Source of the DNA: Ascidia mentula
Taxonomy: Eukaryota; Chordata; Ascidiacea; Phlebobranchia; Ascidiidae
Assembly: GCA_947561715.1 (NCBI GenBank)
Contig: OX387197.1
Span: forward strand, 3,973,001 to 4,037,000
Length of the DNA stretch: 64,000 bases
Direction of reading: 5' to 3'
The notes below the pieces were generated by a model. That model did no database searches. It was not told the origin of the DNA and worked only from the letters and a program-made list of their open reading frames with translations. Within the stretch, counting starts at the first letter, position 1, and every line of letters begins with the position of its first letter. This document shows positions 17,338 through 62,000 of the stretch, one piece after another. The position numbers were made by a program, and so were the translations under genes.

Positions 17338-17620
17338 ACATTTAAAAACAGGTTAAAACAGATATTGTGTATAAGCTGCAGGCAGATGGCCACTGTTTCG
17401 ACCCAAAAGGTCTCATCAGTGCAGCTGGTGTGACTATAAGACGACTTTGCTGACCAAACGGCCAAGCAAAGACTTCCACTTTGTGGTGACTATACAATCA
17501 CCGTCATCCGTTGGGCACCAAACTAGGAGCAACCTTACGGAGAAAACAAGGTGGAAACACTACGGCCAAGCAAGCTAAACCAATAGTGCCGTCAGGCCCC
17601 GTGTCATATTGCTTATCATA
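17338..17620 (-). repeat. Hammerhead-bearing repeat, locus R1
   Basis: This copy is about 283 bp and colinear with R2 (20687-20990), including a shared outer block around ACAGGTTAAAACAGATATTG. The body contains TGGTGACTATACAATCACC, which can fold as a small hairpin, and ends in GCCGTCAGGCCCCGTGTCA. The ribozyme motif is at the left end, on the minus strand. It lies 38 bp upstream of the start codon of CYB561 copy B, so it may lie in that gene's 5' UTR or promoter. Confidence 0.85.
17374..17426 (-). ncRNA. Hammerhead ribozyme motif, R1 (weakened)
   Basis: On the minus strand the core CUGAUGA, stem II GACC/GGUC, GAA and stem I AGCUGCA/UGCAGC are intact. The U before the cleavage base has become C, so the triplet is GCC rather than GUC and the closing A-U pair of stem III is lost. 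Cleavage is expected to be weak or absent. Confidence 0.7.
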
Positions 17621-20686: not shown

Positions 20687-20990
20687 ATTTAAAAACAGGT
20701 TAAAACAGATATTGTGTATAAGCTGAAAAGACAGATGGCCACTGTTTCGACCTAAAAGGTCTCATCAGTGCAGCTGGTGTGACTTTCAGACGACTTTGCT
20801 GACCAAACGGCCAAGCAAAGAATTCCACTTTGTGGTGACTATACAATCACCGTTATCCGTTGGGCACCAAACTATAGGTGCAACCTTACGGAGAAAGCAA
20901 TGTGGAAACACTATGGCCAAGCAAAGCTCAACCAATAGTGCCGTCAGGGCCCGCGTCACAACAATCATATGATAAGCAAAGTGGAGGACT
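20687..20990 (-). repeat. Hammerhead-bearing repeat, locus R2
   Basis: This is the longest copy of the family seen here. Its left end matches R1 from CATTTAAAAACAGG onward. Its right end continues past GTCAGGGCCCGCGTCAC into CAACAATCATATGATAAG, which also occurs, inverted, at the start of R4. That sets the unit at about 300 bp. An open frame of 115 codons through it is a chance reading of the repeat. Confidence 0.85.
20721..20775 (-). ncRNA. Hammerhead ribozyme motif, R2 (stem I damaged)
   Basis: The catalytic core, stem II, stem III ACAG/CUGU and the GUC triplet are intact on the minus strand. The 3' strand of stem I reads UUUUCAGCU instead of UGCAGCU, so stem I is interrupted next to the cleavage site. 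Confidence 0.7.
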
Positions 20991-24620: not shown

Positions 24621-27600
24621 TCCTCCCACAACGAATCACCACACATAACAAAACACATTAAAGATCAAGACGCGCAGGAGGTACAACACGCCGTCCAGAC
24701 CGTGTATGATACGGCTGAACGTCAGGAAAGGGAACAATATGTGCACGATTCCTTCGTACATTTCGACCATTGTGGCGCACAATATATGACCTCGGATTTG
24801 TATGTGGCGACAGAACCTTGCATTTTTCCTTGGCTTTATCGAAATTGATCCACGCATATGTATCTGGAGACAATCTGGGCAAGGCACGTGTACGGTGACG
24901 CGCGTCAAAGTTACGCTTTTGTTTCTCCTTTAAACGCTTATTGTTTATCCGAAAACTGTCCAAGTAACTCCAGCATGGCACCAAGTTAGAAGGAAGCGTT
25001 GGTACGGTTGTCCTTATCTTCCTCCCCATGGACAACTCAGCGGGAGACCATCCACTTTGCAATGGCGTTGCACGGTACGATAGCAAAGCGAGATGCGGAT
25101 CCTCGGATTTTTTCAGCATGTGTTTGACAGTCTGCACACCTCTTTCCGCTTCTCCGTTGCTTTGCGCGAAATGAGGACTGCTTGTTGTATGCCTGAAACC
25201 ATACACTTTTGCGAAGTTAAGGAAATTAGCAGAGGAAAATTGCGGACCGTTATCAGACATTACACATTCTGGAATACCATGCCGGGCAAAAATTGATTTT
25301 AAATGTGCAATGACGTTATTAGCAGTTGCGTCCATCCCTAAGAGAGCAAGTTCAATATATCTTGAAAAGTAATCAACAACTAGTAAATATTGTTGCCCTT
25401 GTAAGAAAAAAAGATCGCATGCAACTTTTTGCCAGGGATATTCCGGTAACTCGGAACAAATCATCGGTTCTGGGTGGACAGTTCTTGACATAGTGCACAA
25501 ATGACAATTTGTTACAAAATTTTCTACATCACCGTTCAATCCTGGCCACCAGATAGAAGACCTTGCTTTTTCTCGACACTTGACTATTCCCTGGTGACCT
25601 TCATGAACTTTCTGCAGAACACTTCGCCTCAGCGATTCTGGAATGATCAGCCGGGTTCCTTTTAACAATAAACCTCGTTGATAGGAAATTTCATCAGCAA
25701 CCCTTTTAAAGGAGGCTAAGTTATTATTGACGACCACGGGCCAACCATGTTCACAAAACGAAATTATTTGAGAAGAAGTTTTATCAGCAATCAAAGCCTG
25801 TCGTATTTGATCCAACCATGTTTCGGAGGTAGATATTGCATTAATAACTGCATCCACGTGGATCTCCACCTCATCAGTCAGCATCGCATCAGTTTCTGAA
25901 ATAGGCGCCTGGGGCGATCTGGACAAAGCATCTGCAATTGCCAAGTTCTTTCCGCAGACGTATGTAATGGAATATTTAAACCACATCAATCGCATTCTAA
26001 ATCGTTGAATTCTGGGGGACAATTGATCCAAAGGTTTTTTAAGAAGCAAGCTGACCAAAGGTTTGTGATCCGTTTCAATTAAAAAGTCCATACCTATCAA
26101 GTAATCCCGAAACCGCTCACAGGCCCACGTCACTGCCAATGCTTCCTTTTCTATTTGTGCGTATAGAAAGGAAGGTCCACAATTTGTCTTTCCTGAGTAA
26201 ATCTCTCAAAGGAGATGTTATTTCTGCTAGGCCAGGTATAAATTTGGACAACTGGTTTGTCATTCCTAAAAATTCCCGAACATTAGTAACAGTGCAAGGT
26301 GACTTCATCGATGTAATGGCTGAAATTTTATCAGGATCTGGTTTAATGCCCTCAGAACTAACATAGTGGCCCAGAAAACGAATATTTGATTTTGCAAACT
26401 CACATTTGTCATTTAAAGTAAGACCTGAATCTTGCAAACGCGTTAGAACTTGTATGAGACGGTGGTCGTGCTCCTCTTGTGTTGAACCGAACACCAGAAC
26501 ATCGTCCATCTGACACACAACACCTCCCATGCCGGATAAGATAGCCGACATCTGTCGTTGAAAGTGTTCTGGGGCGGAGCAAATACCAAATGGCAGCCTG
26601 TTAAAACAAAACCGCCCGCTCGGAGTAATAAAAGTAGTCAACAGCTTCGAACTCTCAGTTAGAGGTATCTGCCAAAAACCTGAATTTGCATCCAATTTGC
26701 TGAACACTCGGGCATTTGCTAGTTTAGCTAGATTGCAATCAACAGTAGGCAAAACGTGATTTTCCCTGCATACATACTTATTCAAAGCAGTGTAATCTAC
26801 ACAAATACGCACTGTACCGTTTTTCTTTGGAACAACGACCATTCCAGAACACCATTCTGTAGGTTTTGTAACGCGGGTAATGACACCGTTGTTCTCCATC
26901 TTCTCAAGTTCAAGTTCTACTGCCGCTTGCAGAGGTAAGGGAACTCTGCGAGGGGCACTAAGACATACTGGGTCAGAATTTTCCTTTAACTTAATGTTAC
27001 ACTTCTCGTGTAATTTCCCCAAGCCTGTAAACAGGGCCGGAAACATCTTGCGAAAATCTTTGTTTTCAAGACCGACACTGTTAAGTGGCGAAAAAATATC
27101 TAGGGCTACAATAGCAGGCCAGCCCAACAATGGCTGGGTAAGTTCGTTGACAACAAAAACTGTCTGACTCGTATGTTTACCCCTGTAACTTAATGAAGCA
27201 ACAAATTTCCCCATAACCCGAAGTTTATTTCTTTGGGGGCCCAGCAGAGTTTCCGTCGAATGAACCAATGTGACATTAGCAATGCAGTTTAAATCAGCAG
27301 AAGGAATAACGCAAACATCAGCACCCGAGTCTACTCTAAAATAAAAAGGAGTGTTGTTAACTTTTATCCAGGCCATTGGCTTCTTATTGGGGTCACTGGA
27401 CATCAAACCAATAAAGTAATTATCAGTAGTTATACTTGAAGACAAACCGTTCACGCTTTGTCGACGACGACAGCAACGACTGAAGTGGCCCCTTTCTGCA
27501 CAACGGTAGCATGTGGCGTCTTTTGCAGGACACCGATAATTTCCAGCGTGAAATCGGCCGCAGGATCTGCATCGATTGCCCTCGCGTTGCGTTACCAACA

Positions 27601-28193
27601 ATCGTTGCTTGCGGACCGAGTCCACATCAGCACTTGGTCCCACAGGACAAAGTGCAGCCTGTTGTTTCTTAACAAACTCTGTGTTACGCACAACGTTGAT
27701 AGCTTTAGCAAGAGTTAGTTCCGGATCCAATTGCAACCTTTCAGTTAGAGATTTGTCGCGTATTCCCACAACAATGCGGTCTCTGATCATTTCCTCTTTA
27801 AGGTCGCCATAGTTACATTTATCGACTTGAGCATACAATGAAGTTATAAATTCTTCTACAGAGTTTATGGCGTTTTGTTCCATTCTGTTAAATACCGCCC
27901 GTTCATATATAACGTTTACTCGAACAGTGAAATAGTCGTTAAACTTCGAGACCACAAGATCATAATCGGTCGCTTGGTCGGCGTTTAACCCAAACGACGA
28001 AAATACATCCTCTGCTTTGCTTCCCAAAAGGTAGAGCAAAAGGTTCACCTGTTTCTTGTTTGACTCTTCATGCAAATTGGATGCATGTCGATAGCGTTCG
28101 AATCTTCTTAGCCAACTGCTCCAACCATCAGGGTTTCCAAGGTCAAACGCTTCCGGAGGCGTAAGCTGCGAATGAAACGCCATTCTGACACCA

Positions 28194-28315
28194 TGTATTG
28201 ACGTAATTGCTACAAGCGGTAAGGGCTCACATTAGCCCTGGTCGGCCTTATATAGTAGGCCACATATGACGTCACAATTACTGGGGCGTTACAGGCAGTG
28301 AAGCATTACGCTACA
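28194..28315 (-). repeat. Upstream (5') LTR of the Ty3/gypsy element
   Basis: This LTR is identical to the other one. The leader between it and the gag start codon is only about 10 bases and coincides with the primer-binding site. Confidence 0.95.
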
Positions 28316-30851: not shown

Positions 30852-33800
30852 ATGTCGGAAATACTGGATTTAAGTCAACTTCTTGGCCCAGAGCCACTGC
30901 ATGTGGATTCATGGGTATGCTCAGCAACATAACCAATTATTTTTTTTACATGATATACAAACTAGTATCATATACTATACATCGGGGATCTGCAACCTCT
31001 GGCCTGCGTGCCATGAGTAGCACTCAAAAGTGACTATTCATGGCATGCCAAGTGCTCACCAGGTTTTCACACCCCCCGCTTCGGTGTTCTTACTGAACAC
31101 ATTCGTTTATTGTTTATTTTATATACGTATATAAAACTATTAAAAATCATAACTCTCCAAATCCATAGGACAAAATTAATTTGCAACTGCCAGTGTTCCG
31201 CATTGACAGAGATTGTAGATACAATCAAATCATTTGCTAATTAATTTTAGCTATATGGACTATGGTGTTTGCCCTAAAACTATTTCATTGTTTAATTCAC
31301 AAATTCGTTTCCACACACTAACGGTTTGATTTAATTTGTAAACTGGAATATATTGCATTCAAAAAGTTGCCAACCCCTTCTATATATTTACATATCTTTT
31401 TATTTTCATGTTACAGCCTTGAATCATAATGTAAGATAAAATATTACAAGTGTTAATTCTTGTGCTGTGTTATCATGGATGTTGTCACTTCTCATTGTAA
31501 ACAAAAAATATGATATTTTTCAGAATATTGGACAGAACTCAGATGACTTTGACATAATGACGGCTCTCGGCGTTTCTCAGGATTATCCCGATCTTGATGA
31601 ACTCCTTGATATTGGGGATGCAAACGATGTTGTCCCCAACTCTACATCTTCATTTGATACAAACTGTATTGAAATCCACGATTGGTATTCTGACACATCT
31701 GCAGCCCCCCACCACCAGTATGGATCACAGATTGAATATGAGGTTTGTGGATTCAATAATTTGTGTTTTTCGAAAATGTTGAAGGAGTTTTATTTTTAGT
31801 TGTGATAATTTTTGGGAAATAAAATGCAGTACATAACTTGAAAATCACATTAGACAGCAGTAAATATTTCTGTAATACTTTGCATATTGTACAATACACA
31901 TATAAAAGCAATAGATTAATGTGCACACAGAAAGACAAAAAGGAAAATGAAGTGGGACTTCTGGAGGCTCTCCAAAAATCGATGGACATGGAATGTGAAA
32001 CTGTCCCTGATCTTGTATGCCTTTCCTCTTCATTAATCCAACCTCCTCTTTCATCAAATGTCTGTTTCTCATCCACTTTAAACCACTGCAGTTTACCTAC
32101 ATCTTCGTCAAGTTATTCGCCACATCCTGGATCTAGTCTGTCGCCCTCTACTGGTGATAACATGTCTCTTACGTCAGTAGTGAGCAGTGCTGCTGAAGCA
32201 TCACTTGAAGAAGTGGAGGACAGTGATGAGTCCGTGGTAAGTGGAAAATATCCAGAATAAAATATAGAAATGCTGTATAATATAATTAATACATATGTAT
32301 CTTAAGTATGCAAGGTATTTAAGTTGTTGTTTTAAATTTGTTGTTATTTTGGGCGTTTTCACTCGATCAGTCAGTGAATGTAAAGCAGTAGAATCAGTAA
32401 AAGAAACACATAGATAGTTTCTTTGATAAATTGTAATTGCTTTGTGTAAGCTGCAGACAGATGGCCACTGTTTCGACCTAAAAGGTCTCATCAGTGCAGC
32501 TGGTGTGACTTTCAGACGACTTTGCTGACCAAACGGCCAAGCAAAGACTTCCACTTTGTGGTGACTATACAATCACCGTCATCTGTTGGGCACCAAACTA
32601 GGTGCAACCTTACGGAGAAAACAAGGTGGAAACACTATGGCCACGGGGCCTGACGGCACTATTGGTTGAACTTTGATTGGCCATAGTGTTTCCACCTTGT
32701 TGGCCGTTTGGCCAGCAAAGTTGTCTGAAAGTCACACCAGCTGCACTGATGAGACCTTTTAGGTCGAAACAGTGGCCATCTGTCTGCAGCTTACACATTC
32801 ATATTATTGGCTCCACTTAGCTTGTATTTGCTTTGTTCCACTACCCACTGTTTTAGTGTAGTTAACAGCGTTGCTAATGAGAGTTTATACAATGAGTCAA
32901 AAAAACAAAACTTTTCTTTAAATAGTTTTGTTTTTGTGCTTTTGACAGTTAAAACAACTCCTATTAAGTCAATCGAACACCAACTACCCACGCGAAGTGG
33001 ATTCCAACAATAATTCCATGCTCGATCATGTTGCAGTCAACATTGTACCCAAGGTACTTGCCTGACTCCCCACATAGTTAATACCTGTACCTGTATTTTA
33101 AAAAAAAGTGGTAGTTCAGTTAAATTTTTTGCTTGTGACATTAAAGACTTTTAAGTGCCACGAATTTATTCAGTGTGCTGTATTTAGCTTACGCATTGTT
33201 TACTGGCTGTAATCATAGATCAATTTATTCTAGAATACTTTGGCAATATTGGCAGGAAGTGTCTGGCATTGTTTTGTAGCGGAAACGTTAAGTCCACTTA
33301 TATTACCAATGACAAAATGTTTAGTGACGGTGGCTTAAATGTTTTTCACCAACATTGTATGTCAACAACCATACATATAACCAGGGGCGTATCCAGGAAT
33401 TTTTAAAGGGGGGGGTCCAATTTTTTTAGGGAATTCCCCGATTTTCAGGTATAAACTAAGTGTAAACTATTGTGGGCGAGAATCGCAAAAAAGCGCCGGT
33501 GTTTGCGCCAATCGTCACATAAACGGTGGCTTTCTGGCTTGCGCAATTGTGCAACGCTATGGAAAGTTTAACAACTAAACTAATTGACTTTCACGCAAAT
33601 AAACCGCTTGTCATTACAACGTGGCCACTGAAAAACGACGTTTCGTCCGTAAACTGACGAAAAATGACACATGTTTCGTAACAATGCAACATGTTTGGTA
33701 ACAATGCCAAGTGTTCGGTAACAATGCTCCCTGTTTGGAAACAATGGCGAATGCAACACGATGCGGTTTTTAGGTCAACGTCAAAGAAAATTTCTGGTTT

Positions 33801-36800
33801 TCACGCGGATTTTGACAAAAAAATCAGTGGCGTTTGTTTAGTTATCAAAAAAGACCAAAATATTTCACAAAAGGGGGGGGTCCGGACCCCTCGGACCCCC
33901 CCCCCCTGGATACGCCCATGCATATAACATATAGTTTGCTGTGATTGTAAATCAATGTTTAACATGCCTTAAGCATCTCTGTCGCTTATTTTTATCAGAA
34001 GACACAAATGTCCTTTGAGTAAGGTCAAGAAATTGCTGTTGGTTGTAAAGGATTTTTTGAAAGAAGTAAAGTGATATATATATATTGCAAATATAAGAGC
34101 AAAATTTGTCATAAATGCTTTGCTATTACAGAGTTTACAAATTTCAATAACTACCCGACACAAAAAGATTTAAAATTTTTTAATTTTATCGGAACCCTGT
34201 CACCGATTTTATCCAAACAGTAATTTCCTTTATTAAGTAAGATCGTGTGGAGCTTGCATGATTTTACTGATAACTTATATAAGTATTGTATATTGTAGAT
34301 GGCTGACAACACTTTCGAAGAGCATAGGCGTAAAAAGAAGACTTCTAAGAAGTTGGGGACAAACAAGAAACCTTTCACTGAATTACTGAAACATTTTGAA
34401 TCGACAAATCCTGACAGTGCATCAAGTAAGATTAGACATTGTGCAACAACATATCCAGATATTATTGGAAAATGCAGAATTGATATCAGCTTAATGTACA
34501 CATTAGTACCCCTGTTTGATGATACTGACAATGCATAAATGTATACGCAATACATATATCAAAAACATCACGACAAATTATTTTTTTATGTTTTTTTACC
34601 CCTGTTTGATGATACTGACAATGCATAAATGTATACGCAATACATATATCAAAAACATCACGACAAATTATTTTTTTATGTTTTTTTCTGGTGTAGCATT
34701 TTAAACCATGTAAAAAATTTTGTGCATATAGTGTTTGGTGAAAAGTGAATAAATTTCAAGCCAATATATTTTTTGCAAATTCATGGTGTGTGATTATAAA
34801 ACTGGATTCTCATTTCAGAAACGGCCAAAACCAACTCAACGAGGGTTGTAAATGCAAGTCGGTACCAGAAGCAGTATGGTTCCACTCCAGTGAACAGGCT
34901 TACATCACCTACAGAGCATTCCATAACTGTGAATGTGGCCCCCAAAGTAGTGAAACCAGCTAGAAGGGCACCGGTGGTCTCTAGGACAATGGCACGAAGA
35001 CAAACTATAGAGTATGACTTTTGTTTGTCTTCAAAAGATTGTAGACATAGTTGAGCATTTTACTTTATACCAAAAACATGCTTTTTATTGATTATTAGAT
35101 TTTTTAGTTTAGAGTGCCCTGCATGTAGATTAAAACTTGCGTATAAACAAAAACCAATCTGACCCTTGTTTTTTCAGTGTTTCGCTTCCTCTTAAGAAGT
35201 CGTCAGTCGCTGTTTCCAAATCTCATATTGAAAGTAGTGAAAAAAGTAAGTCAGTAATTGATGAAACATCGTTATGATCTTCCAAAAGCACGTTTTCACA
35301 ACGTCAACATTGATTTTGTTGGCTTGCCACCATCACAAGAATGCAGTCAATAGTTATCAGCAGAATACGGTTAAAACTTGTTAGAACTGAAGAACATCTT
35401 CAAAATATTCTGAAATGTGTAGTTATATTATGTAGCAAAATTCTGACATGGACAAAGAAAGTTACTGCAGGAACAATGTACCATATGTGGTGTAGGGCCC
35501 TGTACCTGTTACATGTAATCAGATGTATTTACGATCCCATTTAGTACATTTTTTTCATTGTAAATTTAATATTTGTTTTTGTGTGACAGTGATTGTAGCA
35601 GCTGATGCCAACACACTTCTTGACATTTTGGAAAACAAATCTGCACCAGAATGGAGGCCTCAAGGTATATTGGCTTTTGTTTTGCACCCGACTTCATTGT
35701 TGGATGGTGTGATCAGTTTTATGAACTAAAAACACTTTTGCATAGGTATGAAAAATTCATGGTTATTACTAAGTACAGTCACTTTTATCTGATGCATGTC
35801 ATGTTTCTAACGTAGTTGGAATTGACTGCTCATCAATCAAGTCGCGGATGTTAATCGATAAACGCAGATCCACCGTTCTTATCGATCCGCTGCCGCACAA
35901 ACGACAAAAGATAAATAGTGATGACAAAACTACTGATGAAGAGTCATGTAGAAAAGAACAACCAGAGTGCACAGAAAAGCCTTCTGCGGAACATGATTAT
36001 TGTCAAAACAAGGTTTCTGAACCAAATAGTTCTGACCTGCTGACTGAAGTGTTGCAAGCAAGTGGTCTTCCATCATCGCAAGACGAAAACCAGGATGTTG
36101 GTGATGATGTTGGCGCAAAAGCAAGCAAGGTTTTGAAGTGGCAAGATTACTTGCAGCGTGTACGTCTGGGTATACGAAGTGCCCCAAACAGTCCAACATG
36201 TTCACCAAAGATTCAACGTGGCTCTGCAAGGGTCCCGAACAACTTCATGGTGCAAAATCATGGCGGAGTTGTAAAAACAACACCTCGACCTGTAACGCAC
36301 CTCGTAGAACCAATAGTGGCTGCCAAGGCACCCAAACAAAAGTCTAACTTAAAACTGCAGGAATTCGAGGAGTACCTTGCCAAACTCCAGAACAAAACAG
36401 TTGTTTCCGCTGTTGCAAGTTCCTCATCCGTGTCAGACAAAGAAAAAGCCCCTTCTGCAAAATCGGACAGGTCAACATCTCACAAAAGCCAGTCCCAGAA
36501 AGATGACCCCATACTGGTGAAGCCGAAAGCATTGCCCAAGCGTTCCAGGCAAGTAACGGTACCCAACATCTCAAGCAAGTCCTTTGTAAAGATTAGTACG
36601 AATGGAGTGGTGCACACTGCTGCAGTATCTTCAGCTCAAAGCTCGGTCACACCTCTGGTAATGATACAGATTCCCAAAATGGCAAGCGCAGCAAGCCTTG
36701 GTACGCACGTCTACACCGCTGCAACAAATGCCAAGTATGTATCTTCTGTCATGGCACCGACAACATCGAATGGTGTCGCATCAGCCAATAACCAGTTACA

Positions 36801-39800
36801 AGACCCTCGAAAAACGTTGAAGCCCAAGTCAAATTCCCACAAAATGATGGACAAACCAATATCAAAGGTCAAATGGAGCGCAAATGCCGTCACAAATGTT
36901 TCACAGTCTTCCACAATTCCTGCTCAATGCGTGACATCATCTGGTGAAACCACTAAACCTCCAACATCTGGTCCCACTTTTAAGCTTGTTACATCGAACA
37001 AGGGTGGTTTGGAAACCAAGTCACTGATTCTCAGTGGAGTTTCTGGAAAACTGAAGGAAATTCTCACTTTGTTGGCTCAACAGCAACAGGTGAATAAATG
37101 TTGTATACATACTTGTTACAGACATGTTGACCATATGGACTTTTTACTTTTTAGTGTGTATTGGTTGCTTAACTTTCTTGCATCCTTTTCCCACTTATTG
37201 CAAGTTAACTAAAGGATAAAAAAATCCCTTTTTAAGGGTCCAGACAAACATATATACCCATTTAAATTTTTAGCAGTTTACAGTAAATTCTACCAATATA
37301 CGCTTTTTGACATCCTTGCACAAATTGTTACAGAAATCTGTTATGCGGAATTTAGAAGCATATTTTCATTTAATGATTTCAATCGTTTAAAAATATATTT
37401 GTGCATTCCAGCAACAGGGGGCAGCTACGACCACTGCGGACTCCTCCCAGCAGCAACAGAAAACTCTTCAACAACTTCTCACAGCAGTTTCAAACCTTAA
37501 AACATCCACTGCAAGTTTGCCGGGTGCCAACATCTCTACCAGCCCTTCCACGACATCCACGTCCATTAGCTCCAAAAGCACTAGCAGCAAAACTGCATCA
37601 AATGAAACTCTCAGGTCTGTTTTAACATCAGAAAGCCGAAAGTCTGTGCCCTCGCCCTTGTCGCTTATCCACGAAATCAAGCAAAATTTGAATAAAAAAT
37701 CTGACACTGTTGTCGCAACAACCAGGTTTTCTACAAAGGCAAAGCCACAATATGTTTACACTGTTCCTGCATCGTCATCAGTAAATTTGATACAAGCTCC
37801 TGGAAGTTCAACAATGACCACGGGTGGAGGTGTTTTGTCGTTGGGCAGGAGAGCAAGTGCAGATGACATGGAAACCTACCCTAAAACGACATTGGGCAGG
37901 AGGCATTCAATCCAAGAGCGCCCTAAATTGCAAAAGGTTGCAAAGGAGCTTGAATCTCCGAACACAAATGCTGAATCAAGCAATCAAATCACAGTTTTCG
38001 TCGACCAGGAAAAATCATCGACAAAAAAAGATTGCAAGGTCCGAGATGACAACTTCCTCATGGAGAATGAGTTGTTCGACATGGAGTTAGCATCCAAAGA
38101 ACAAAACGCACAAGACAGCACCCTGTCAGAACTAGACTTATTAGCAGGCAATGATCTTCCCCAACACGAAATATTACCATACATCGACTCTGTACCTTAC
38201 GGCAAAGCTGGTTTCTTGAACTTATCAGCACAGACGGCACAACCACGATTGTCACATCCCAGGACAGGGTTTACTATTCAAATGAAGTCAACGGATTTAA
38301 ACTCTCAAGGGTCTATCAACTTTGTGAATGAAGCTTCAAGTTACCCTACTTCAACTTCAAACCACCCCATTCCTGCTCCACTGACTGTGTGTTCCTTATT
38401 GGAACAAAAATCACCAGATGTCAAAAAAGAACTTCATGTTGGAGAGGAAGGAAAACACAAAGATGTGAATAATCGAACCGAGTCGACCCTTTTGCAACAG
38501 TGTATTGCTTCATCAGCAACAAAAGATTTTAATATTGAAGATGTCTTGCAGCAAGTAAGTAAATTATTGGGAAAACCAAGTTATAAGAGTATAGTAATAT
38601 GAAGGTTATGGTCCGGCTGTATATTTTCTTTTTGCCCCTAACCATGGTGTTTTTAACGTAAAGGCACCAGAAACCGGCGGTATACAGACTGCTGACGTGG
38701 TTGATCTGCATCCGATGATTGATGAAGTTGGAGTGCAGGAGACAGTTGAATGCGCTGATGAAAGCGGAAATGAAGAACAACCAGTACTTTTCAACAAACT
38801 ACCAGCCTATCTCTACTCTGGCAAAGTTCTCAGTTCAGGTATGAATGAAAAATGATGATATCAGTTTCTTTTTTGTGTAGTTGTAGACATAGGTGTCAAT
38901 TCCTATCTCCCAGAGAAGGCCAGCCTAACCTGTAAAATATCCAGGTTAGGCTGCCTACCCTGGTTTTAAAAGGTCGCTGTCGTTCTTTAAGCTGATATAT
39001 CGGCAATTATCATCGTTGTCATTCATCACGCACTGTGCTAAACATATATAAAGAAGAGCTCGATGAAATGGACAAAAAAAAACTTTTTAAATCAATTTGT
39101 GTTGCGTAGTACAACTCGCAAAAATATCTTCGCCGTTTTATAAATTAAAGTGGGTGTTGTTAAGTTCATTAATTTTAGTTTTTTTTCAATAAATGTTGAT
39201 ATGTTTCAAGCTCTTATTGTTTTCTATGACAAAAGCACCAAGTCCGTAAATTGACTCGGTAATCGCGAGACAAGTACGACACGAATATGCCACAGAACCC
39301 AGGCCCAACAATAATTTTCCCTGACCTAACCTGGAAACTGAAAAAATCGACGCCTATGGTTGTAGGTATAGGTGGAATGTAACAGGGTCCTTAACCAAGG
39401 ACTGGGACTGGCTCTGGTCTGTACACAAAGAACCAATTATTGGCACAAAAAATGCTACATACACACCCCATGTCTGCACAACCAACAAATAAACTGTAGT
39501 TTGACACAGCTTTTTTTGAAATTTTTTGATTCAACAATTATTTAAATGTAAATAAATCATTACTTCCTCTGCAATAACTATTGATTATATTCAAGCACTG
39601 ATCATTTCTTTCAAGGTACCACTACCAGCCAATCATCAAACGAGTATCGCAATAATCCAGCGGTAAAGGGTTTAAAAGATCTGAACCACGACCCTTTAAT
39701 TGGAAGTTTGGAGAAAGAACAAGACCAGGAAGTTTTACATTACAACAAGGTTCCTCACTATCTGAGAGGGGGAAAGGTCCTTCCCAGGTGTGTTGGTTGT

Positions 39801-42800
39801 TTCTTTGTAACAGTGTAGATAACGTTTCTTGCCCAGTATTACATGAAGTTTTTTTGCCGGTCCTTCAATATTATTTTTACATTAAATGGATTTCTTTTGG
39901 TACGGAGCGCATACTTTTGCCTTATTATATTTTATTTTTTATTTTTATATGTTCTTTTAAATACATTTTAGATAATTAAATGGGCTGTCAAAGTATTTAA
40001 AAATTTAGTGGTCCGTAATTGCAAAAGATTCAATACACAATACTAATATATGGAGAAAATCTGCTCATGGATTGAAATGAGTTGCAATTTAATTATAGAA
40101 AATAAATGTGCTTCAAGCAACTACGTTGTTAATTTGGTTTCACTATTTATTGTCCGAATCCATGTCAAATTTGTTTGTTTCAGTTACAGAATGAACAGAA
40201 ACTAATGGGTTTACACTGATAATGATTGATTTTTTTGTTAAATTACATAAACCACAGCAGGGCAGGGTTGGATTTAAAAAATCAATACCGATATAAATTG
40301 GTTGGTTTGCAATTGTAATTAAAATTAAACGTGTAAAATAAAATTTTGGACAACCAGTGTTTTTTCCAAACAATTTGCTCCGATGCTTAAGCTTTTCACA
40401 ATCCTAGTTTTAAAAATAATAAATTTTCTTAGAATGCCGAAGGACTTGCATTCTGTGGGTAGCCGACATCGTGCAATGAGCTCTGACAATTTTGAAAACT
40501 ATCCTGTATTGAAACGGACACCAGAGGGCGCTGTGGTCAACACAAAAGAATTGTTTTACTCCAGGCTTCCATCATATTACAGGTACGAAAACTTCTTTGC
40601 CATTTTTCTTGTGTACTTATAAAAAGTAAATTTATGACTAAAGACAATAAAATCATAGTCTTATGTCACTAAACTGTTCCTCTTTGGAATTCGGCACTTT
40701 TTGAAAATGTGAAGAAAAAAACTGGTTTGTTTTGCTGCGTTTGTTTTACGCACAAGTGTCCAATCAAGTAACGTTTGGTGTTTTTCTTGCAAAGTTTTGT
40801 GAATATTTTCTACTTGTTGTGTTTTAGTTCTGGTCGTTATCATGTGGTTGACACAGTAACTGAACCTCCGCCGACAGAAGATGTTACCGTTACCCCGGAA
40901 ACCATGTGGAAACAGGATCAAGAGGAAAAGTAAGTCTAACTATTTTTTGGAAATTCGGATATTAGGCCAAACCAAAAATGACGCACAACAATTGACAATT
41001 AGTTTAAATCGTAAATGAAAAACATCATCAACACAGAAATTACTGATATGTAAACGACTGTTCCGTCGGTACAGTCTCGTTCCTTCAGTCGTATCTTATG
41101 CGACAACTTACTAATCGCAGGCGCAAGAAGCGTGAAAAGAAGAAGAAACGAAAGAAGAAGCGAAAGAAGCAGAGCAAAAAACAGGAAAAACAACTGGAAA
41201 ACGACCGCCTTCTCTACTCCAAACTTCCCCACTACTTTCTTGCCGGTCGTCGCTCATTGGTTCCCGATCGCCGAGCCTCGGAGCAGTCGTATTCCTCTTC
41301 GCTCTCTGATACGTCAATTTCGGACGACCAAGAAGCTAACACCAGTTTCAGGTCCCGCACGTATCAACGTTCCTACTCACCTAAGCGTGGCCGTTCCGCT
41401 TCGACTAACAGCTGGAGTTCAAGGTCACCTTCCCGTAGTCCGGAGTAAGTGTGTGTCTGGTATATTACTAATGTTAAGACGAATTCTGACAGTTTTTCGC
41501 TTCTGTTTTAAGTTGAAAGTCTCAAATTACCGATTTAAAAAAAATTTAAATGGGTTTGAATCTGATCTCTGTCTTGCAATTTCGACATTGAACAGAATTC
41601 CATTTTCTTGCAGTCGGTCGTGGAGGTCACAGCGTTACAGAGTTAACTCAAGGTCTCCGACTCGTCGCTACAGCTCATCCGATTCTGATTATTCCACTCA
41701 CAGGTATTGTACATCAACTTTTCGGTTTTCATAACATAACATGTTCTTGAAAATTCAAACGGTTGAATCTTGAAAAATTTACGATTGAATTCATTGTCAC
41801 ATAATTTTGTGAATAACAGTTATTTGATGCTTATGGTTCAATACAGTAGCAACTAACTATATTATATAAAACATCTTCTTTTCTGAACAATTTATTTTAT
41901 GTGTTTCCACCAATGTGCAATAGGTCAAAGGTCACACGAAAACGTCGCCGATCGCCTTACTCCAGTGGTTCGGATTGGGAGAGCAAACGTCGTAAGAAAG
42001 CAGACGATCGAAAACGAGAGGTTAAGGTAAAATGGGCGTGTCCGTTAAAAAAGGGGCGTGTCGACAACGTCGTTATTTGAATGCGACCCCTTTTTTGTTT
42101 CACTGCAGACATCGGTTTTACAAACAAAATGCCAGTTTCAACAAAGCAATGTCAACAATACAAATGACTTCATCAGTTTTTATATGTTAGAGCTTTGGCA
42201 ATTTGCATTGTTCTAAACTAAACGATTGTCCAATATCCAACCGCCTTTAGTTTGCTCGTTCGGCCAGTAAGTGATCCTCTATGTTTCGCATTACAGAACA
42301 AGGCTATACAGGAACGTCGTGTTCTCTACGTTGGTGGCATCGATGATTCTGTGTCGAAAAACGACCTCCGTAGAAGGTTCGAGAAGTTTGGAACCATCGA
42401 AGAAATATCCCTGCATTTCCGTAGAGACAGGTAAGATTCTGCGTTAACCCCCATTACGTTGATTAACAATCGTTTCACAATTTAATCCGATTTTATCTAC
42501 GTAAAATCATGCATTAACCGTACAAAGAAAAGGAAAGATTAAGACATAATTTTGTGAGTGGAGAAGCCATTCAAATTCCCCAACTATGTAAACAATGCTA
42601 TGAAGCCTGAAAAATGCTTCTAAGCCCCTTTATTACATCTTATTCGTTTTTTTATAAATGGCTTTGTATATATGAAGTGATGGCATGATCACTTCTACAA
42701 ATAAGTCAAGATATTCCACTGTGTACCCTCATAACATTTATATTCACGTATTTTAACAATTATTACGTCATACAGAGACAGTTATGCCTTCATTACGTTC

Positions 42801-43629
42801 CGCTTCACTTGCGACACATTCGAGGCAATCGAGAAGGGCAATAGTGACGTCACACAGAAAAAATACACCCTTTGTTTTGGTGGACGTCGTGAGTTTTGTC
42901 AAGTCGAATACGCCGACCTTGGTAAGCCAAAGAACTCCATGTATTGGGGGAACATTGTTTTTTTGGGAAAATTGCTGGGTTTTAATTGACAGCTTGGCTG
43001 TAAAGTATGGTGATTATGGTTGACACAGTAGAACACTGGGAGTTGATGGTAATAACTTCTATACGTTCCATTATTTTACGTAATCCAATGAGCCCAAACA
43101 TATGTAATCGTTTTTATTATTCGCATTAATGTAGTGTTAACAAATGATAAAGGTATTTAATAAAATGGTATAGGCATCGCTAAAACTACAGAAGTAGTAC
43201 CAACCCTCTTTCGCCAAAAACTTCCTTGGAAAATTTTATTATCATATGATTATTGTGACACGGGGCCTGACGGCACTATTGGTTGAGCTTTGCTTGGTCA
43301 TAGTGTTTCCACCTTGTTTTCTCCGTTTTGGTGGCACATAGTTTGGTGCCCAACGGATGACGGTGATTGTATAGTCACCACAAAGTGGAAGTCTTTGCTT
43401 GGCCATTTGGTCAGCAAAGTCGTCTTATAGTCACACCAGCTGCACCGATGAGACCTTTTAGGTCGAAACAGTGGCCATCTGTCTGCAGCTTACACACAAT
43501 TGAAATTTTATTGTTTGGACAAAGAACTTACAATGTTATTTTTTCCCAGACGAGGCGCCAGAGAGCAATCAACAAGCGTCGGCAGAAGACGATTTCGATA
43601 CTTTGCTTAAAAAGGCGATGAGGCGGTGA
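30852..43629 (+). CDS. PGC-1/PPRC1-family transcriptional coactivator, 19 exons
   Basis: Coding exons: 30852-30914, 31524-31742, 31931-32236, 34299-34425, 34819-35011, 35178-35245, 35590-35664, 35816-37089, 37412-38554, 38664-38838, 39616-39787, 40433-40582, 40828-40929, 41121-41444, 41614-41703, 41924-42026, 42297-42430, 42776-42921 and 43550-43629. All join in phase and give 1647 residues, near human PPRC1 (about 1660). Domains: acidic N-terminus with LSQLL and DLDELLDIGD; FTELLKHF (about 222), matching PGC-1 alpha SELLKYL; the HCF-1-binding tetrapeptide EHDY (409-412), followed by CQ as in PGC-1 DHDYCQ; LQQLL in exon 9; four KLPxY repeats (about 1200-1400); an Arg/Ser-rich segment; an RRM (about 1530-1615) starting QERRVLYVGGI; and the end DDFDTLLKKAMRR, like PGC-1 DFDSLLKEAQRSLRR. 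The family docks on nuclear receptors, NRF-1 and HCF-1 to drive mitochondrial genes. Introns hold two hammerhead repeat loci and two hAT-type MITEs. Confidence 0.93.
30983..31378. mobile_element. Possible hAT-type MITE in PGC-1 intron 1
   Basis: The segment starts CGGGGATCTGCAACC and ends GTTGCCAACCCC, imperfect terminal inverted repeats of a type common in non-autonomous hAT elements. No convincing 8-bp target duplication is seen, so the limits are approximate. Confidence 0.35.
32449..32501 (-). ncRNA. Type I hammerhead ribozyme, intact, R3 left arm
   Basis: On the minus strand all parts fit: stem I AGCUGCA/UGCAGCU (7 bp), core CUGAUGA, stem II GACC/GGUC with loop UUUUA, GAA, stem III ACAG/CUGU with loop UGGCCAU, and cleavage base C after GU. 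It is antisense to PGC-1. Confidence 0.9.
32739..32791 (+). ncRNA. Type I hammerhead ribozyme, intact, R3 right arm, sense in PGC-1 intron 3
   Basis: It is base-for-base the same 53-nt motif as the left arm but on the plus strand. Every invariant hammerhead position is present (C3 to A9, G12-A13-A14, A15.1-U16.1, C17). Cleavage would fall after the GUC, four bases before the end of stem I. Because PGC-1 is transcribed in this direction, the motif is made in its pre-mRNA. Confidence 0.9.
33382..33920. mobile_element. hAT-type MITE with 8-bp target duplication, PGC-1 intron 3
   Basis: The terminal inverted repeats are CAGGGGCGTATCCAGG and CCTGGATACGCCCATG, with one mismatch. The exact direct repeat CATATAAC flanks both sides (33374-33381 and 33921-33928). 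G/C runs sit just inside both ends. The 539-bp element has no transposase. An 8-bp duplication and CAG-type ends indicate the hAT superfamily. It contains a short tandem array near 33668-33747. Confidence 0.9.
33668..33747. repeat. Four tandem 19-20-bp units inside the MITE
   Basis: The unit is close to ACATGTTTGGTAACAATGC and is repeated four times with substitutions. Confidence 0.75.
34507..34686. repeat. Perfect 90-bp tandem duplication, PGC-1 intron 4
   Basis: The block 34507-34596 is repeated exactly at 34597-34686, from TACCCCTGTTTGATGATACT to the T-run. Identity implies a recent duplication, or an assembly artefact. Confidence 0.9.
38880..39366. mobile_element. hAT-type MITE, PGC-1 intron 10
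   Basis: The element 38888-39358 has ends CATAGGTGTCAATT and AATCGACGCCTATG-like inverted repeats, with further inverted similarity inside (CAGCCTAACCTG and GACCTAACCTGG). It is flanked by GTTGTAGA (38880-38887) and GTTGTAGG (39359-39366), an 8-bp duplication with one change. No coding capacity. Confidence 0.75.
43239..43500 (+). repeat. Hammerhead-bearing repeat, locus R4, PGC-1 intron 18
   Basis: This near full-length copy is in the sense of PGC-1. It starts ATTATCATATGATTATTGTG, runs through CACGGGGCCTGACGGCACTA and the body, and ends with the ribozyme and CTTACACACAATTG. It lies just before the last coding exon (43550). Confidence 0.88.
43438..43490 (+). ncRNA. Hammerhead ribozyme motif, R4 (core mutated)
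   Basis: It is identical to the intact R3 motif except that the core reads CCGAUGA instead of CUGAUGA. The changed residue is the invariant U4, so cleavage is probably lost. Confidence 0.75.
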
Positions 43630-55000: not shown

Positions 55001-57920
55001 GCAGAATTGCCATAAAATACTCGAAATATTATCACACCAAAATGTATTCGTACTACAGCTATTTTCAGTTACGTTTAATTAAAGAATTTCTTTTTTAATT
55101 CTAAACCTTCAACCTGTTCTTGGAGCTCAACAATCGTTCGTTGGTTCGATTCATTCTTATCAACCAGTTCATTGTTTTGTGAAACAGTAGCTTTTAAATC
55201 TGCGCACAGCCTTTCAGCTTCCATGTGGCTTGCCTGTGTAAACACAGTATCAAGGGATCAATATTGAAGTCAGCTGTCGGCGCGTATGACGTATATGATG
55301 GTAAGGTACAACAGCAAAAAAATAACATGTGACATTTTTATGCGATTCTATTGATGATAGACGTGTGCTTGCAAATTGTAGCGTTATAAAATTATTAGGC
55401 CTATTTATAGCACATAATTAGCCACAGGAATACAGTATTCGAAGTGAAACGTAGGCATCCATGATAACAACTGGAACAACCGGTTCGCAGAGCTCATAAA
55501 AATTCCAAAAACCGGTTCGCGCCGAATCCCACCATATTGAAGAACTGAATCCGTGGAAACAGTTTCTTATTTGGTTGCTAAATAAAATTACAACGTCCAA
55601 AAGCCAACCTGTAATTTTAATTCCGACTCCTTTTGCCTTGAAACGAAGCGTTCGGTGGCATCGGACAATTGTTGGTTGAGATTCTCTTGTAATCCTTCGT
55701 GGTAACTTATCCATTGCTAATTTTAAACACAAAAGATTTTAGATTAAATTGCTCACTTACTCTATGTCACAGATGCAACCAGGCAAATTGACATTGCAAA
55801 AAGCCCTTTTGGCGACATAGCAAGTATTAAAATTCGATTTGTTGAATGTTTTTGGTGTTGCACTTTGGAATTTAACACGATGTTGGTGCCAACTTAGGAG
55901 ATAAATCCTAATAAAGGCTGCTGTATGATAAGCGATAGTTTTTCTGTATTGCCAGAAGAGGATTTTTGCTTTGGTCTATTAAATATTAACATTTATTTGT
56001 GTTTCGCTCACGTGGATGTACGATTCCTTGACAAAAACCACTTTCGTATGCGCTTAAAACTAATGCAAAACGTGGTATGATATGGGGGCACAGGTTAAAG
56101 TTATCCCCGGTGAAAAGTTATTGACAACATTTATATAAGCATGTGGAGCCAAATAATATGAATTATGTTAGCTGCAGACACATTGGTCGGTGAGATCGCC
56201 TACAAGAGTCACACCAAGCTGCACTGATGAGACCTTATAGGCCGAAACTGCGGCCATCTGTCTGCAGCTCTGAGAATTTATAACATATATATCAATGAAA
56301 TATTCCATTGTGTCTCTTTAGGATAAAACAAAATTAATTAATGTCGACAATTAGGCCAGCTTTACAGCTAACAAACCTGTGCATTTTCTAATTCAAGGGA
56401 GAGTTCGTCTCTGCGAGCATTTGCTCTTTCCAATTTTTCTCGCATTTTTTCAACATCCTCGAGTTCTTTATGCACCTTCCTTCCATCACCACTATCGGCA
56501 ACGTCGTGGACCACTTTGGCCGCCTTGGACATCACCATCATGCCGAGTTGGTACGCCAGCGACGAGCTGGGGGTGTTGACTTCAACCTCGCTATTACTGG
56601 ATGCTGTGTTTTTGGGGAAAGAGGAAGAAATGCTCATAACTGCAACAGTAAAAAAATGGGACTGAAATTTGGGGCGGATCCAAAAAATTTCCTAAATTTC
56701 CTAGGCCTATAGGTTTTCAGCTACTGATTGTTAATGGTGGGCAGTTACCAAAACTAATTGTGACGCTTTAGTGGTGATTTCAGTCGCCATATAGCCATAC
56801 ATGCGCCAGAAAAAGCTCGCTAGTGATGAAAGAAAATCCATCTTTAACAACCCTTCAATCTGTCACCAGCAGTACTTTTTTACTGTTGTAACATTTTCTT
56901 AGGGATTGTCTAAACTAAAAGGACTAACTATAAACATAAAACGAATTGTTGTCTTATATTTGACGTTTTTACCTTCATTTGAGCTGGCTAAAGAAAATGG
57001 TTCGCCACTCGCGTGCAGTTCAGTCATTTCAACCCCTTCTGTTTCATCATTTTCCAGATTTATTTCGCACCAATTTTGCGTCGTTCTGTCAACATTTGTC
57101 CTGGTTACGCCATTTGACTCCAACACAGTTGTTTCTGGGTACACTGAGCATTTTGGGTTTATATCCGCACTCCTTTCGCTGTTCTGCATCGATATTTTGC
57201 AAAAATATTTTTCTTCCTTTATGCTTTCATTACAGCTAGGCTCGTCATCGACGTTCCAATCCCATTCTGCCAAAAAATGTGTCTTGTTAAAGAAACAAGT
57301 CGGTTGTACTACTTTTTATGTGACAGTAACGTATGCCCTGGACAAACAGATAGCTTTCGTTGTGTTGGTCGGTGGTTTTCACACATCACATGAATGTATA
57401 TCTATTACACCGGTGCTACCCAACCATTGGGTCGCGATCCATTGGTGGGTGGCAAAGCTTTTACAGGTGGGTCACGAAGCATTTCTAAATGTTACAGTGT
57501 TCTATCGGATCACGAAATTATTGCATTATCATTAGGTAACATCGTTTGGTCATGTCCCATTGTGGGTCGCACAATAAAACTCGCATTAAAAGTGGTCGCG
57601 AACTGAAAAAGTTTGGGAAGCACTGTATTACACAACGTACTTGTAGAAATGTTAAACCAAACTGATCAAATATTGGTTATGATACGCCAATGTCAATATA
57701 TACTCTCATTTACCAATTCTGAAATGCACCACATTTGTTGATTGAATCAACTAACATTTAAACCAAATACATTGTTGTAAGTCACATACAAACAGATACG
57801 GTTAGATAGTACAAGCTACAGAATGACTAACCTCTGTCCAGTAGGTTTTACCTAGTTTAGTAACTCAAACTTACTGAATAACCATTTACCTGCACTCGAC
57901 CAAAACACATCTTCCTCCAT
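52068..57920 (-). CDS. Long coiled-coil protein (994 aa), family not recognised
   Basis: Minus-strand exons: 57890-57920, 56973-57266, 56377-56639, 55609-55716, 55114-55233, 52654-54444 and 52068-52445. All join in phase. It starts MEEDVFWSSAEWDWNVDDE (acidic and Trp-rich, reminiscent of adaptor- or kinesin-binding acidic motifs), then a low-complexity linker. Heptad-rich coiled coil runs from about residue 200 to 650 with few breaks. Then come a proline/acidic linker with a run of about 11 Glu, a basic segment (KSLKRFKLRNKPTAKHR) and a C-terminal part, HYYVTYDGVTFDLASFSMAK to LGEAADWLELRGVYR, that looks globular. Exon 6 alone codes 597 residues. Likely a scaffold of cytoskeleton, centrosome or Golgi, but this is inference from architecture. 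The donor after exon 5 (GTTGAAG) is weak, and the order of exons 4 and 5 rests on phase. Confidence 0.8.
52986..53019. repeat. CTT trinucleotide run inside the coiled-coil gene
   Basis: About 11 CTT/TTC units on the plus strand read as a polyglutamate run in exon 6 of the minus-strand gene. Length is likely polymorphic. Confidence 0.85.
56169..56271. repeat. Hammerhead-bearing repeat, locus R5: minimal palindromic copy
   Basis: A 103-bp locus starts TAGCTGCAGACACATTGG and ends CATCTGTCTGCAGCT. The left part is a remnant of the minus-strand ribozyme end and the right part a complete plus-strand motif, with almost none of the usual body between them. It lies in intron 3 of the coiled-coil gene, antisense to it. 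Confidence 0.8.
56217..56269 (+). ncRNA. Hammerhead ribozyme motif, R5 (stems weakened)
   Basis: Core CUGAUGA, GAA, the GUC triplet and stem I AGCUGCA/UGCAGCU are intact. Stem II reads GACC/GGCC and stem III ACUG/CUGU, each with one mismatch. The invariant bases are all present, so residual activity is possible. Confidence 0.75.
57403..57633. mobile_element. hAT-type MITE with target duplication TATTACAC
   Basis: The element 57411-57625 begins CGGTGCTACCCAACC and ends GTTTGGGAAGCACTG, imperfect inverted repeats. TATTACAC flanks it exactly on both sides (57403-57410 and 57626-57633). It lies in intron 1 of the coiled-coil gene and has no coding capacity. Confidence 0.88.
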
Positions 57921-59005: not shown

Positions 59006-62000
59006 ATGTTTCGATGCAGAAAAACACGTGGATTTATGCCTCGGAAACTGTTCTTTATCATTTGTGCCACAACTGCCTTTGTGGTAACAATTGAAATCTT
59101 CCACAATTACCGACTTACAACAGGTCTAAGATCTAGCAGCAATATTCCCATTAAAACCACTACTGCCAACCGAATACAACGCTTGCATTTAAACCATTTG
59201 GCACCATCAGATGAGCCTCAGCAAAGGCATGTTATTTCTGTTGAGTTGATGAAAGATGAATACAACAAAGCAAAGATCCTGCAGAAATCAAGAATACAAG
59301 CTCATGACAGAATAGCACCAGGCTACACAATAAGAAGCGTTCAAGATGTTGTCAATCAGGTTTGCACATTGGGTTTTAGAAAGATTTCTACATGATTATA
59401 ACACAAAACTTCATCAATAAGTGGTAAAAGGATGTCCAATAGTCACGATTTACTTTAAAATTATTATTGTAGCTCAAAATTTTTCACAAAAGAATAAACT
59501 GATCCACAGGTTTGAAACAAACTTGTTATAATTAGTTGTGAAAAAATTTATCATTGAAATCTTTCCTTGTCAAAAGCTGTTTTTTCTACAGTATTTTATG
59601 CATTCGATACTTGTAATGTTAATTGTCTCTCCTGCAACATTCTTTTGTGCCAGGATGGAAGTGCTGAGCTGCAAAAAGTAGTGTTTCCAAACGTTTACAA
59701 AAATGATTCACTGGCAATGCAAAGATATATCAACTATCTACAAACTCGTGAAGAACCTCTACCACTTCAGACCAAAGCTGTAATTATATTGACCAACTAC
59801 AGATCAGGTATATATATATGATGCGACAAAACCTCAAGACAATTAGTGGCAATTCAGTAATGGTTGATAGTAAATACTGTTTACCCATATATTCAAACTT
59901 TTTGGGGAAAAGTCTTTGCTGCAAAGTGCACTAAATTTATTCATGCAGGTTCATCCTTTTTTGGAGAACTTTTAAATCAACATCCGGACGTGTTCTACAT
60001 GTTTGAACCACTTATACTACTTTCCAAGTTGGACCACTGCCATACTAACTCCGAGTTGAAGAAGAATATTTTGAAAGACCTATTTCAATGCAAATTGCCA
60101 GATTGGTTTAAAGTATACTCCAGTATGTATAGCATGTGACTCTATGTTTTTGTGATATGTGTAAGTAGTGGAATAGTTGCATGTAAAGAAAACAATAATA
60201 TTATTTACACAGAAAGAATATAAATATGTCCTTTTTAAAATATTGTTAAAAAAATAAAATTTACCAATTTACTTAAATGGACAGCCACCAAAGCTTCCAA
60301 GGATTTTCAGCATTATCATTTTTCAACAGGCATATATCAAAGTTATTCAAACCAGCCTTGCTCTATTTTAGATTTGCCGCATACATTACGACCGCCGATG
60401 ACAAAAAATATTTTTACTTGCATCCGGAAAAAATCCTGTTTTTCTCCATTCACTAAAGATCTGACAAAGGAAAAGCACTGTCCCCGTGCAGTTATAAACG
60501 TTACAAGGTCAGTCATTATTAAACACACTATTTGTAAAGTGTATTATGTTTGAATTTGCATTACTTCTCAATAAAGCCAATAGTACAATGTGTAATTAAG
60601 AGTTAATGCACCCAACTAACAACCAAAGATTATTATACACATATTGAAAGAATTTGTTGATGTTTGTTTCAAAGTGTTCTGGCACCTCATAGATCATAAA
60701 ACTTTTTATAATTTTTTTAGGCCATTTAATGCGTGGGATCACTGTGGTGCTATTAACCCCAATCTAGCAGTGAATGACTGCCGAAAAAAACAGTTGGTTG
60801 CCATTAAAGTTATAAGGTTTTGTAATCTGGCTGACCTACAAGATGTTGTCTCAAGCATTGAAACAGATGTTAAGGTAGATAAATTTTTAATTGCGATTTT
60901 TGTTTTCCCATTTCATACTTTTATTGCATGACACAAAATGTGTATAGTTACTGCTGTTAAATTGCTATTAAGCATCAACGTAAGGAAGTTTTTGCAATGT
61001 ACAGCAACATCTTGTCTTGTAGGTTTTGTGCCTTTCTAGCCTTCAATACCAGTCCTCTTGATTTCTACGCATTTCCTTTGAATGGCGCACACCCGATCGT
61101 GCACGACCACGCTTGTTCCGGTTTATTAAATTTCATCGTGCATTACCATGTCCTACCATTGCATTGTCCCGTCATTTTTTGGCTGCAATTCGTTGTCAAT
61201 TAATTTTACAAGCGCTCTATTGAATTGTCATGTAGCATTGTGTTCGACCTATACTGTCTCATCAGTACAGCTTGGTGTGACTCTGAACGATGTTGCCGGC
61301 CAAACGGCAAGGGTATACAATCACTGTTGGGCACCAAAATAGGTACATCCATACGGAGAAAACAAGATGGAAACACTATGGCCAAGCTAAAGCTAAACCA
61401 ATAGTGCCGTCAGGCCCCGTGTACCAATAAATAACATAAATAAGCATGCAACCAATAATATAAATTGGTAAGCCACATACAGATGGTCACTCGACCTACA
61501 AGGTCTCATAAGTATAGCTGGTGTGGCCACGAACGATGCATGCAGTTCACAAAATTCATGTTATTGACTTCGTGCTTGTTTATCTTATTTTGACTTTACG
61601 AGAACTTTCTACATCTCTGTATCGTTTTTACGTGCAGGTAATTCATCTGATTCGCGACCCACGTGGAATCGCCCATTCGCGTCACGTGATCCATCGTCGA
61701 ATGAACTTGGCCGAATCGATGAGGTTCACTTGCAGGCGGCAGAGAGACAACGCCGAACTCGCTTTTTTCGAGAGGCCGGAGTGGCTGCATGGTCGTTACA
61801 AGGTATTGAAGAGGGAAAGTTGGGTTAAGGGCATGTTGGAAAGTAACGTTTTTCCGAAGTTTTGGTGCTTTTGGGAAAGGTACTACATGTGTTGAATTAC
61901 CAGTTGATTTTGAGTGTTAGAAACTCATGAAATCATTTCGTTGGAAAAGGTTTTACTAAACCATTGCATGGAACTTAAAATAATTATGCGTATATAACAG

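Follow-up and report, generated by a model that had tools for sequence, protein, structure and literature searches.

A hammerhead ribozyme in a PGC-1-family intron of Ascidia mentula belongs to a short repeat, probably a non-autonomous Penelope-like retroelement, inserted head-to-head

Introduction

The conserved intronic hammerheads of amniotes are few, conserved motifs residing in the introns of host genes. Dispersed hammerheads are far more numerous: according to a review, minimal type I motifs number in the thousands across animal genomes, and both what they do and their part in retrotransposons are still a mystery (PMC7761336). Host-gene intronic hammerheads are also mentioned in the article on animal retrozymes (PMC7229834), and nine type I hammerhead loci are reported for the tunicate Didemnum vexillum (PMC8704543). 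Judged by title and opening of the abstract, none of the matches listed in our literature search dealt with ascidian hammerhead elements.

The closest described systems are the pseudo-LTRs (pLTRs) of Penelope-like elements and the non-LTR retrozymes of metazoans. Penelope-like pLTRs are described as carrying a minimal type I hammerhead near one end, with AT-rich target duplications of 8-16 bp, variable 5' ends, tandem copies, and inverted copies that meet head-to-head at a palindrome (PMC11167929, PMC7761336, PMC3846280). For Penelope elements of the rotifer Adineta vaga, both direct and head-to-head inverted pLTRs are described, together with palindromes at the junctions and duplications that measure 8-10 bp (PMC3846280). 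The hammerhead of the lizard element PAc sits where pLTR and ORF meet, and its reverse transcription is described as beginning inside the RNA, within an AC-rich stem-loop, and as using AT-rich targets (PMC11167929). Hammerhead cleavage of PAc was dispensable for insertion in vitro (PMC11167929), which cautions against presuming the ribozyme essential. The frame of PAc begins with the AUG contained in CUGAUGA. Animal retrozymes, in turn, are described as short non-coding tandem units with one type I hammerhead each, a G+C content under 50%, and target duplications of more than 4 bp; LINEs or Penelope-like elements have been proposed as their movers, and action as a dimer is described for those of amphibians (PMC7229834).

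Here we analyse a stretch of 64,000 nucleotides of the ascidian Ascidia mentula (contig OX387197.1, positions 3,973,001 to 4,037,000; hereafter the window), in which an initial annotation had proposed that an intact hammerhead provides the pre-mRNA of a PGC-1-family gene with a self-cleaving site.

Results

The host gene is predicted on the plus strand. Its exon upstream of the motif (31931-32236) has an open frame and a donor-like GTAAGT end, the next exon follows at 35779-37089, the two parts of an RRM are encoded at 42297-42430 and 42776-42921, and the last predicted exon (43550-43629) ends with DFDTLLKKAMRR. The RRM and C-terminal exons join into a single open frame, and a protein search with this part of the gene returned 75 proteins, every one with an RRM domain. 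The informative names among them include PGC-1alpha and PPRC1, and a few proteins carry other, unrelated names. The best match, with 82% identity across 77% of the region, belongs to the ascidian Phallusia mammillata; the second best, at 58%, is from the ascidian Clavelina. By its C-terminus, the predicted protein matches the PGC-1 family, and the proposed location of the motif, in sense orientation within an intron of such a gene, is borne out.

The intron also holds a 90-nt exact tandem duplication at 34507-34687. Elsewhere in the window, two overlapping frames on the minus strand (24661-28231) encode reverse transcriptase, RNase H, integrase zinc-binding, and integrase core domains, an order that we take to be that of Ty3/gypsy-type retroelements. 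A tRNA scan of the window gave 0 matches.

The motif itself occupies 53 nt of the plus strand at 32739-32791, with the letters AGCUGCA-CUGAUGA-GACCU(UUU)AGGUC-GAA-ACAG(UGGCCAU)CUGU-C-UGCAGCU. Helix I has 7 bp, helix II has 5 bp with the loop UUU, and helix III has 4 bp with the loop UGGCCAU, a count that includes the A15.1-U16.1 pair of the hammerhead numbering. The core consists of CUGAUGA and GAA, and GUC precedes the predicted cleavage site after position 32784. All invariant residues, the three stems, the 7-bp stem I, and the GUC triplet that the initial annotation had named can be read in these letters, and its assignment to type I also holds, as a conserved core, three helices, a cleavage triplet, and an open helix I are all present. 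Helix I runs for seven uninterrupted base pairs and then opens, lacking the loop or bulge through which canonical forms make contact with loop II; as a predicted structure, the motif is a minimal type I hammerhead. Loop III contains the self-complementary UGGCCA, through which two hammerhead RNAs could pair, in line with the dimer action described for amphibian retrozymes (PMC7229834).

The core pattern, CTGATGAG-N-CGAAAC-N-GTC, occurred four times in the window, compared with no occurrence in 100 dinucleotide shuffles. A looser structural scan found two sites, the motif and an exact inverted copy of it, and likewise two in 20 mononucleotide-shuffled windows, so that by itself the fold would be only modestly improbable; the motif is better supported by its repetition. 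Folding of the 53-mer was slightly better than that of its shuffles (z -1.55; 12 of 200 equally good), and its minimum-energy structure is a competing one, at -17.4 kcal/mol versus -16.0 kcal/mol for the hammerhead. Covariance models gave the annotation no backing: at gathering scores, the Rfam search returned no match for the window motif, and the best hammerhead scores at this site were 20.0 bits for RAGATH-1 (E 0.87; gathering 56.3) and 18.0 bits for Hammerhead_3 (E 0.54; gathering 48.5). Hammerhead_1 was absent among the 20 matches listed for the window up to E 5, and in the whole genome none of the 73 sequences scored, from 27,659 candidates, exceeded its cut-off. The hammerhead motif at 32739-32791 is nevertheless confirmed as real.

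Both hammerheads found by the structural scan belong to a single insertion of 378 bp (32446-32823), which lies between the predicted exons at 31931-32236 and 35779-37089. Its bounds are given by a flanking duplication and its layout by BLAST with one unit: an inverted copy on the left and a shortened sense copy on the right, arranged head-to-head. The left target site duplication, GTAATTGCTTTGT (32433-32445), is identical to the right one, GTATTTGCTTTGT (32824-32836), at 12 of 13 positions and shares with it a 9-nt exact core, TTGCTTTGT. Oriented like the gene, the right copy is missing 79 internal nt and bears the reported ribozyme near the 3' end of the insertion.

The left copy carries the exact inverted hammerhead (32449-32501, minus strand; core at 32456-32494), whose core start lies 290 nt upstream and which had been overlooked in the initial annotation; on the plus strand it is an antisense predicted to mask the sense ribozyme. 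It is part of a 98-nt arm (32443-32540, minus strand) that is 98% complementary, with two differences, to the right arm bearing the sense hammerhead (32700-32797, plus strand). The two arms meet near a 24-nt palindrome, the left half of which (32620-32643) is 100% complementary to the right half (32678-32701).

When up to three mismatches were allowed, five matches were found in the window, namely the 32739 motif, its inverted twin at 32456-32494, and sites at 17381, 20730, and 43445. The last of these belongs to a second sense copy (43239-43499, plus strand), located between PGC-1-family exons, in which the core (43445-43483) reads CCGATGA for CTGATGA and which is flanked by a 10-bp target duplication, AAATTTTATT. 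On the minus strand, an element copy at 17365-17606 (core at 17381) has the cleavage triplet GCC and a 12-bp target duplication, TAAAACAGATAT, and another at 20712-20986 (L081; core at 20730) has an exact core, a broken helix I, and no detected duplication of at least 7 nt. A short diverged copy at 56207-56269 (plus strand) carries a core variant at 56224 with mismatches in helices II and III, and an old diverged copy at 61243-61525 (minus strand) is 77-81% identical; no duplication was detected for either. Each of the four further core-bearing copies (43445, 17381, 20730, and 56224) has a visible defect.

The genome, of 195.8 Mb, contains 1,222 copies (643 + 579) of the 39-nt core when up to two mismatches are allowed, compared with 0 for the reversed pattern. 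The anatomy of the copies was studied in a sample that was not random, made up of the best matches (L001-L030; 40 scored of 2,237 candidates), the first 30 exact cores, all on contig 1 (L061-L090), and the window. Scanning these loci with a real two-unit stretch and removing overlaps yielded 60 elements, 57 of them away from the locus edges. One unit has 285 nt and a G+C content of 46%. Among the matches listed, most copies stop soon after the ribozyme, at TGCAGCTTACACAA or TGCAGCTTATACACAA, and others, with the copy at 32739-32791 among them, extend about 30 nt beyond that end. The 5' ends are variable, and element lengths range from 35 to 699 nt.

Target duplications are present at about half of these insertions: 29 of 57 carried one of 9-16 nt, a length of 9 nt being reached in 29 of 1,970 mismatched flank pairs. 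Ten insertions had duplications of 7-8 nt, none of at least 7 nt was found in 18, and none of at least 9 nt in 28 of the 57. The duplications of 9-16 nt comprise 26 distinct ones (one common to three loci, another to two), which are 79% A+T, compared with 61% for the window.

Same-strand neighbours form ten pairs on contig 1, nine of them 284-286 nt apart and one 570 nt apart. Arrays contain two to six cores at 285-nt spacing, and many insertions are single or partial units. Head-to-head inversion is frequent: 20 of the 57 insertions have the layout '-+', compared with one '+-' and one '+-+', and the other 35 occupy a single strand only. Neighbours within 600 bp among the 90 exact cores of contig 1 were likewise arranged '-+' in eight cases and '+-' in none. 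The junction palindrome of such pairs is documented for the window copy (32620-32701) only.

Changes in helix II were scored as possible traces of selection on the ribozyme. Pair 4 showed single changes on the left in 13 copies (seven of them G-U wobbles) and on the right in 21; both sides were changed at pair 4 in three copies, one of which restores pairing, and at pair 3 in one copy, which restores it. One further compensated copy, with a mutated core, is found in L018. This covariation is too thin to demonstrate selection and gives no clear sign of it. A repeated segment of about 1.2 kb with further element hammerheads 2.8 kb apart is present at G000:C1:21261280-21264330 (L094), and some copies of the family apparently multiply through host duplication rather than insertion.

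For the RNA of 32443-32797, the predicted structure is a near-perfect hairpin at -266.9 kcal/mol (z -28.7), a stability that 0 of 100 shuffles reached. With energies that omit Mg2+ and tertiary contacts, the hammerhead fold has a computed probability of 3.4e-2 in the 53-mer; the value is 3.1e-3 in the right arm and 1.5e-60 in the whole insertion, where it falls this far because an exact antisense copy lies upstream in the same transcript. We surveyed 45 exact-core copies with enough flank. Ten of them, in six insertions, have an exact antisense core at most 600 nt upstream, and their log10 probabilities lie between -60.1 and -27.3. For the other 35, the median is -4.6 (range -47.8 to -1.5), the low values among them being due to a partial or mutated inverted copy upstream.

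In work on a different ribozyme, complements placed upstream are described as having blocked its assembly near-completely in vitro when they were 10 or 12 bp long, and one of 12 bp as having left no detectable cleavage in yeast (PMC2817708). The probability drop from about 3e-2 to 1e-60 makes self-cleavage of the PGC-1 pre-mRNA unlikely, and masking of the ribozyme at 32739-32791 by the upstream antisense is predicted as the likeliest outcome. A minimal hammerhead may be able to act as a dimer.

We also searched for an autonomous partner. GIY-YIG frames gave 134 matches in the genome, and in 33 stretches (30 of these matches and three more) no Penelope-like element with the 285-nt unit as its pseudo-LTR was found. 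The unit itself is too short to encode both a reverse transcriptase and a GIY-YIG endonuclease. At G000:C67:6139419-6148416 (L045-L047), Penelope-like elements follow one another in tandem at intervals of about 2,870 nt; their open frames span 892 residues, with a reverse transcriptase part recognised by eye. This array is a likely source of the mobilising enzyme, which we infer to be Penelope-like by analogy with the described pLTRs. Related hammerheads near GIY-YIG fragments at L050 and L060, two of the 30 loci, were considered as partners but look like separate old insertions; the three additional stretches contained none. A full-length Penelope array near C1:21.26 Mb, where three minus-strand cores lie 2.8 and 3.3 kb apart, was also rejected, as the repeated segment between two of them has no frame of more than 105 residues. 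At L034, near 1935 on the minus strand, a half-hammerhead-like stretch, CTGATGAAGCGAGAGGTACTCGCGAAAG, adjoins a GIY-YIG frame.

Outside animals, the hammerhead pattern was found in 0 stretches of prokaryote genomes and in six stretches of viral contigs, where the flanks are unrelated. The IMG/VR viral contigs L096-L100 (e.g. L096:12909-12935) contain a hammerhead-like motif with a helix II very similar to that of the element and, by eye, a type III layout shortly upstream of a start codon; L095, also viral, holds another hammerhead-like motif with other flanks. Four of the six viral stretches were tested against Rfam, and none gave a gathering-level match.

Discussion

The hammerhead in the PGC-1-family intron probably forms the ribozyme-bearing end of a short repeat that was inserted head-to-head. 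This repeat is likely to be a non-autonomous retroelement of the Penelope-like pseudo-LTR type, and its upstream antisense copy is predicted to block cutting of the pre-mRNA. As in Penelope-like pLTRs, the hammerhead is minimal and near one end, duplications of variable length flank copies at AT-rich sites, 5' ends vary, and copies occur in tandem and head-to-head, with a junction palindrome in the window copy (PMC11167929, PMC7761336, PMC3846280). Unlike Penelope-like elements, the repeat has no reverse transcriptase or endonuclease frame, and the 33 stretches contained no autonomous element with the same unit. Its helix III has 4 bp, whereas the minimal forms of Penelope-like pLTRs are said to lack the non-conserved part of this helix (PMC11167929, PMC7761336, PMC3846280).

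Such an element could spread as follows. A reverse transcriptase encoded elsewhere, most likely Penelope-like, would take multimeric or circular RNA of the element as its template and copy it at AT-rich targets, and the hammerhead would trim the element RNA to units. Because the pair at 32446-32823 is head-to-head, an antisense arm lies upstream for both strands; a polymerase on either strand would make that arm first, so that each hammerhead would emerge beside its complement and be trapped.

The initial interpretation as a whole is partly supported, its weak part being function. A ribozyme that cuts PGC-1 pre-mRNA and tunes expression would fit the complete core, the sense orientation, the intronic position, and a hammerhead structure within 1.4 kcal/mol of the best fold of the separate 53-mer; we consider it very unlikely, however, since the motif is one of 1,222 near-exact cores of a mobile, dispersed repeat and sits in an insertion with its own target duplication, has an exact antisense upstream that lowers the fold probability to about 1e-60, scores below the gathering level of Rfam, and is accompanied in the gene by another sense copy whose core is mutated. 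A ribozyme private to PGC-1 is rejected on account of the copy number and the antisense arm. With the intronic hammerheads of amniotes the element shares its intronic position, but unlike them it is a repeat that has many copies, boundaries of insertion, and an antisense partner. The same hairpin could instead have been selected as a source of double-stranded RNA that silences the family through small RNAs or editing. Its near-perfect length and the eight exact-core '-+' pairs on contig 1 alone agree with this proposal, yet intronic hairpins are frequent by-products of inverted repeats, and we regard such selection as highly improbable.

Among the explanations that start from a mobile repeat, a true metazoan retrozyme, in which active hammerheads release 285-nt RNA circles, mobility is of the LINE rather than the Penelope type, and head-to-head copies are by-products, seems unlikely to us. 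The tandem 285-nt units with a type I hammerhead each fall within the 150-450 bp of such units, and a G+C content of 46% and duplications of more than 4 bp also resemble animal retrozymes (PMC7229834). The element hammerhead, however, is minimal and has no helix I loop, unlike the canonical retrozyme motifs with their loop-loop contacts; many copies are single or head-to-head, and the frequent head-to-head inversion favours Penelope. Seen alone, the window copy resembles a MITE, a 378-bp element with inverted arms of 98 nt and a duplication, whose terminal repeats would merely happen to include the motif. This reading is exceedingly improbable, as 35 of the 57 insertions are single-strand, elements can be as short as 35 or as long as 699 nt, the duplications differ in length, and tandem units are present; single-strand, tandem, and variably truncated copies contradict a DNA transposon in general.

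The probable Penelope-like repeat is thus of limited novelty as a further member of the Penelope/retrozyme hammerhead world, and its self-masking geometry is the notable part. A large dispersed set of hammerheads can now be linked to a single short element that has clear boundaries of insertion, a unit of 285 nt, and copies arranged head-to-head. A ribozyme that looks intact within an intron can be rendered unlikely to act by its own inverted neighbour, and claims of intronic ribozymes that rely on the motif only should pass a check for such a neighbour.

It is conceivable, although we hold the idea only tentatively and think it rather doubtful, that the head-to-head insertion works as a built-in safety catch, in which either transcribed strand yields the antisense arm first. 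If this is true, self-cleaving elements would be tolerable in introns in either orientation without cutting of the pre-mRNA, and intact solo ribozymes would be underrepresented within introns in the sense orientation, but head-to-head pairs would not. From such a depletion, one could measure what genomic hammerheads cost the genes that host them.
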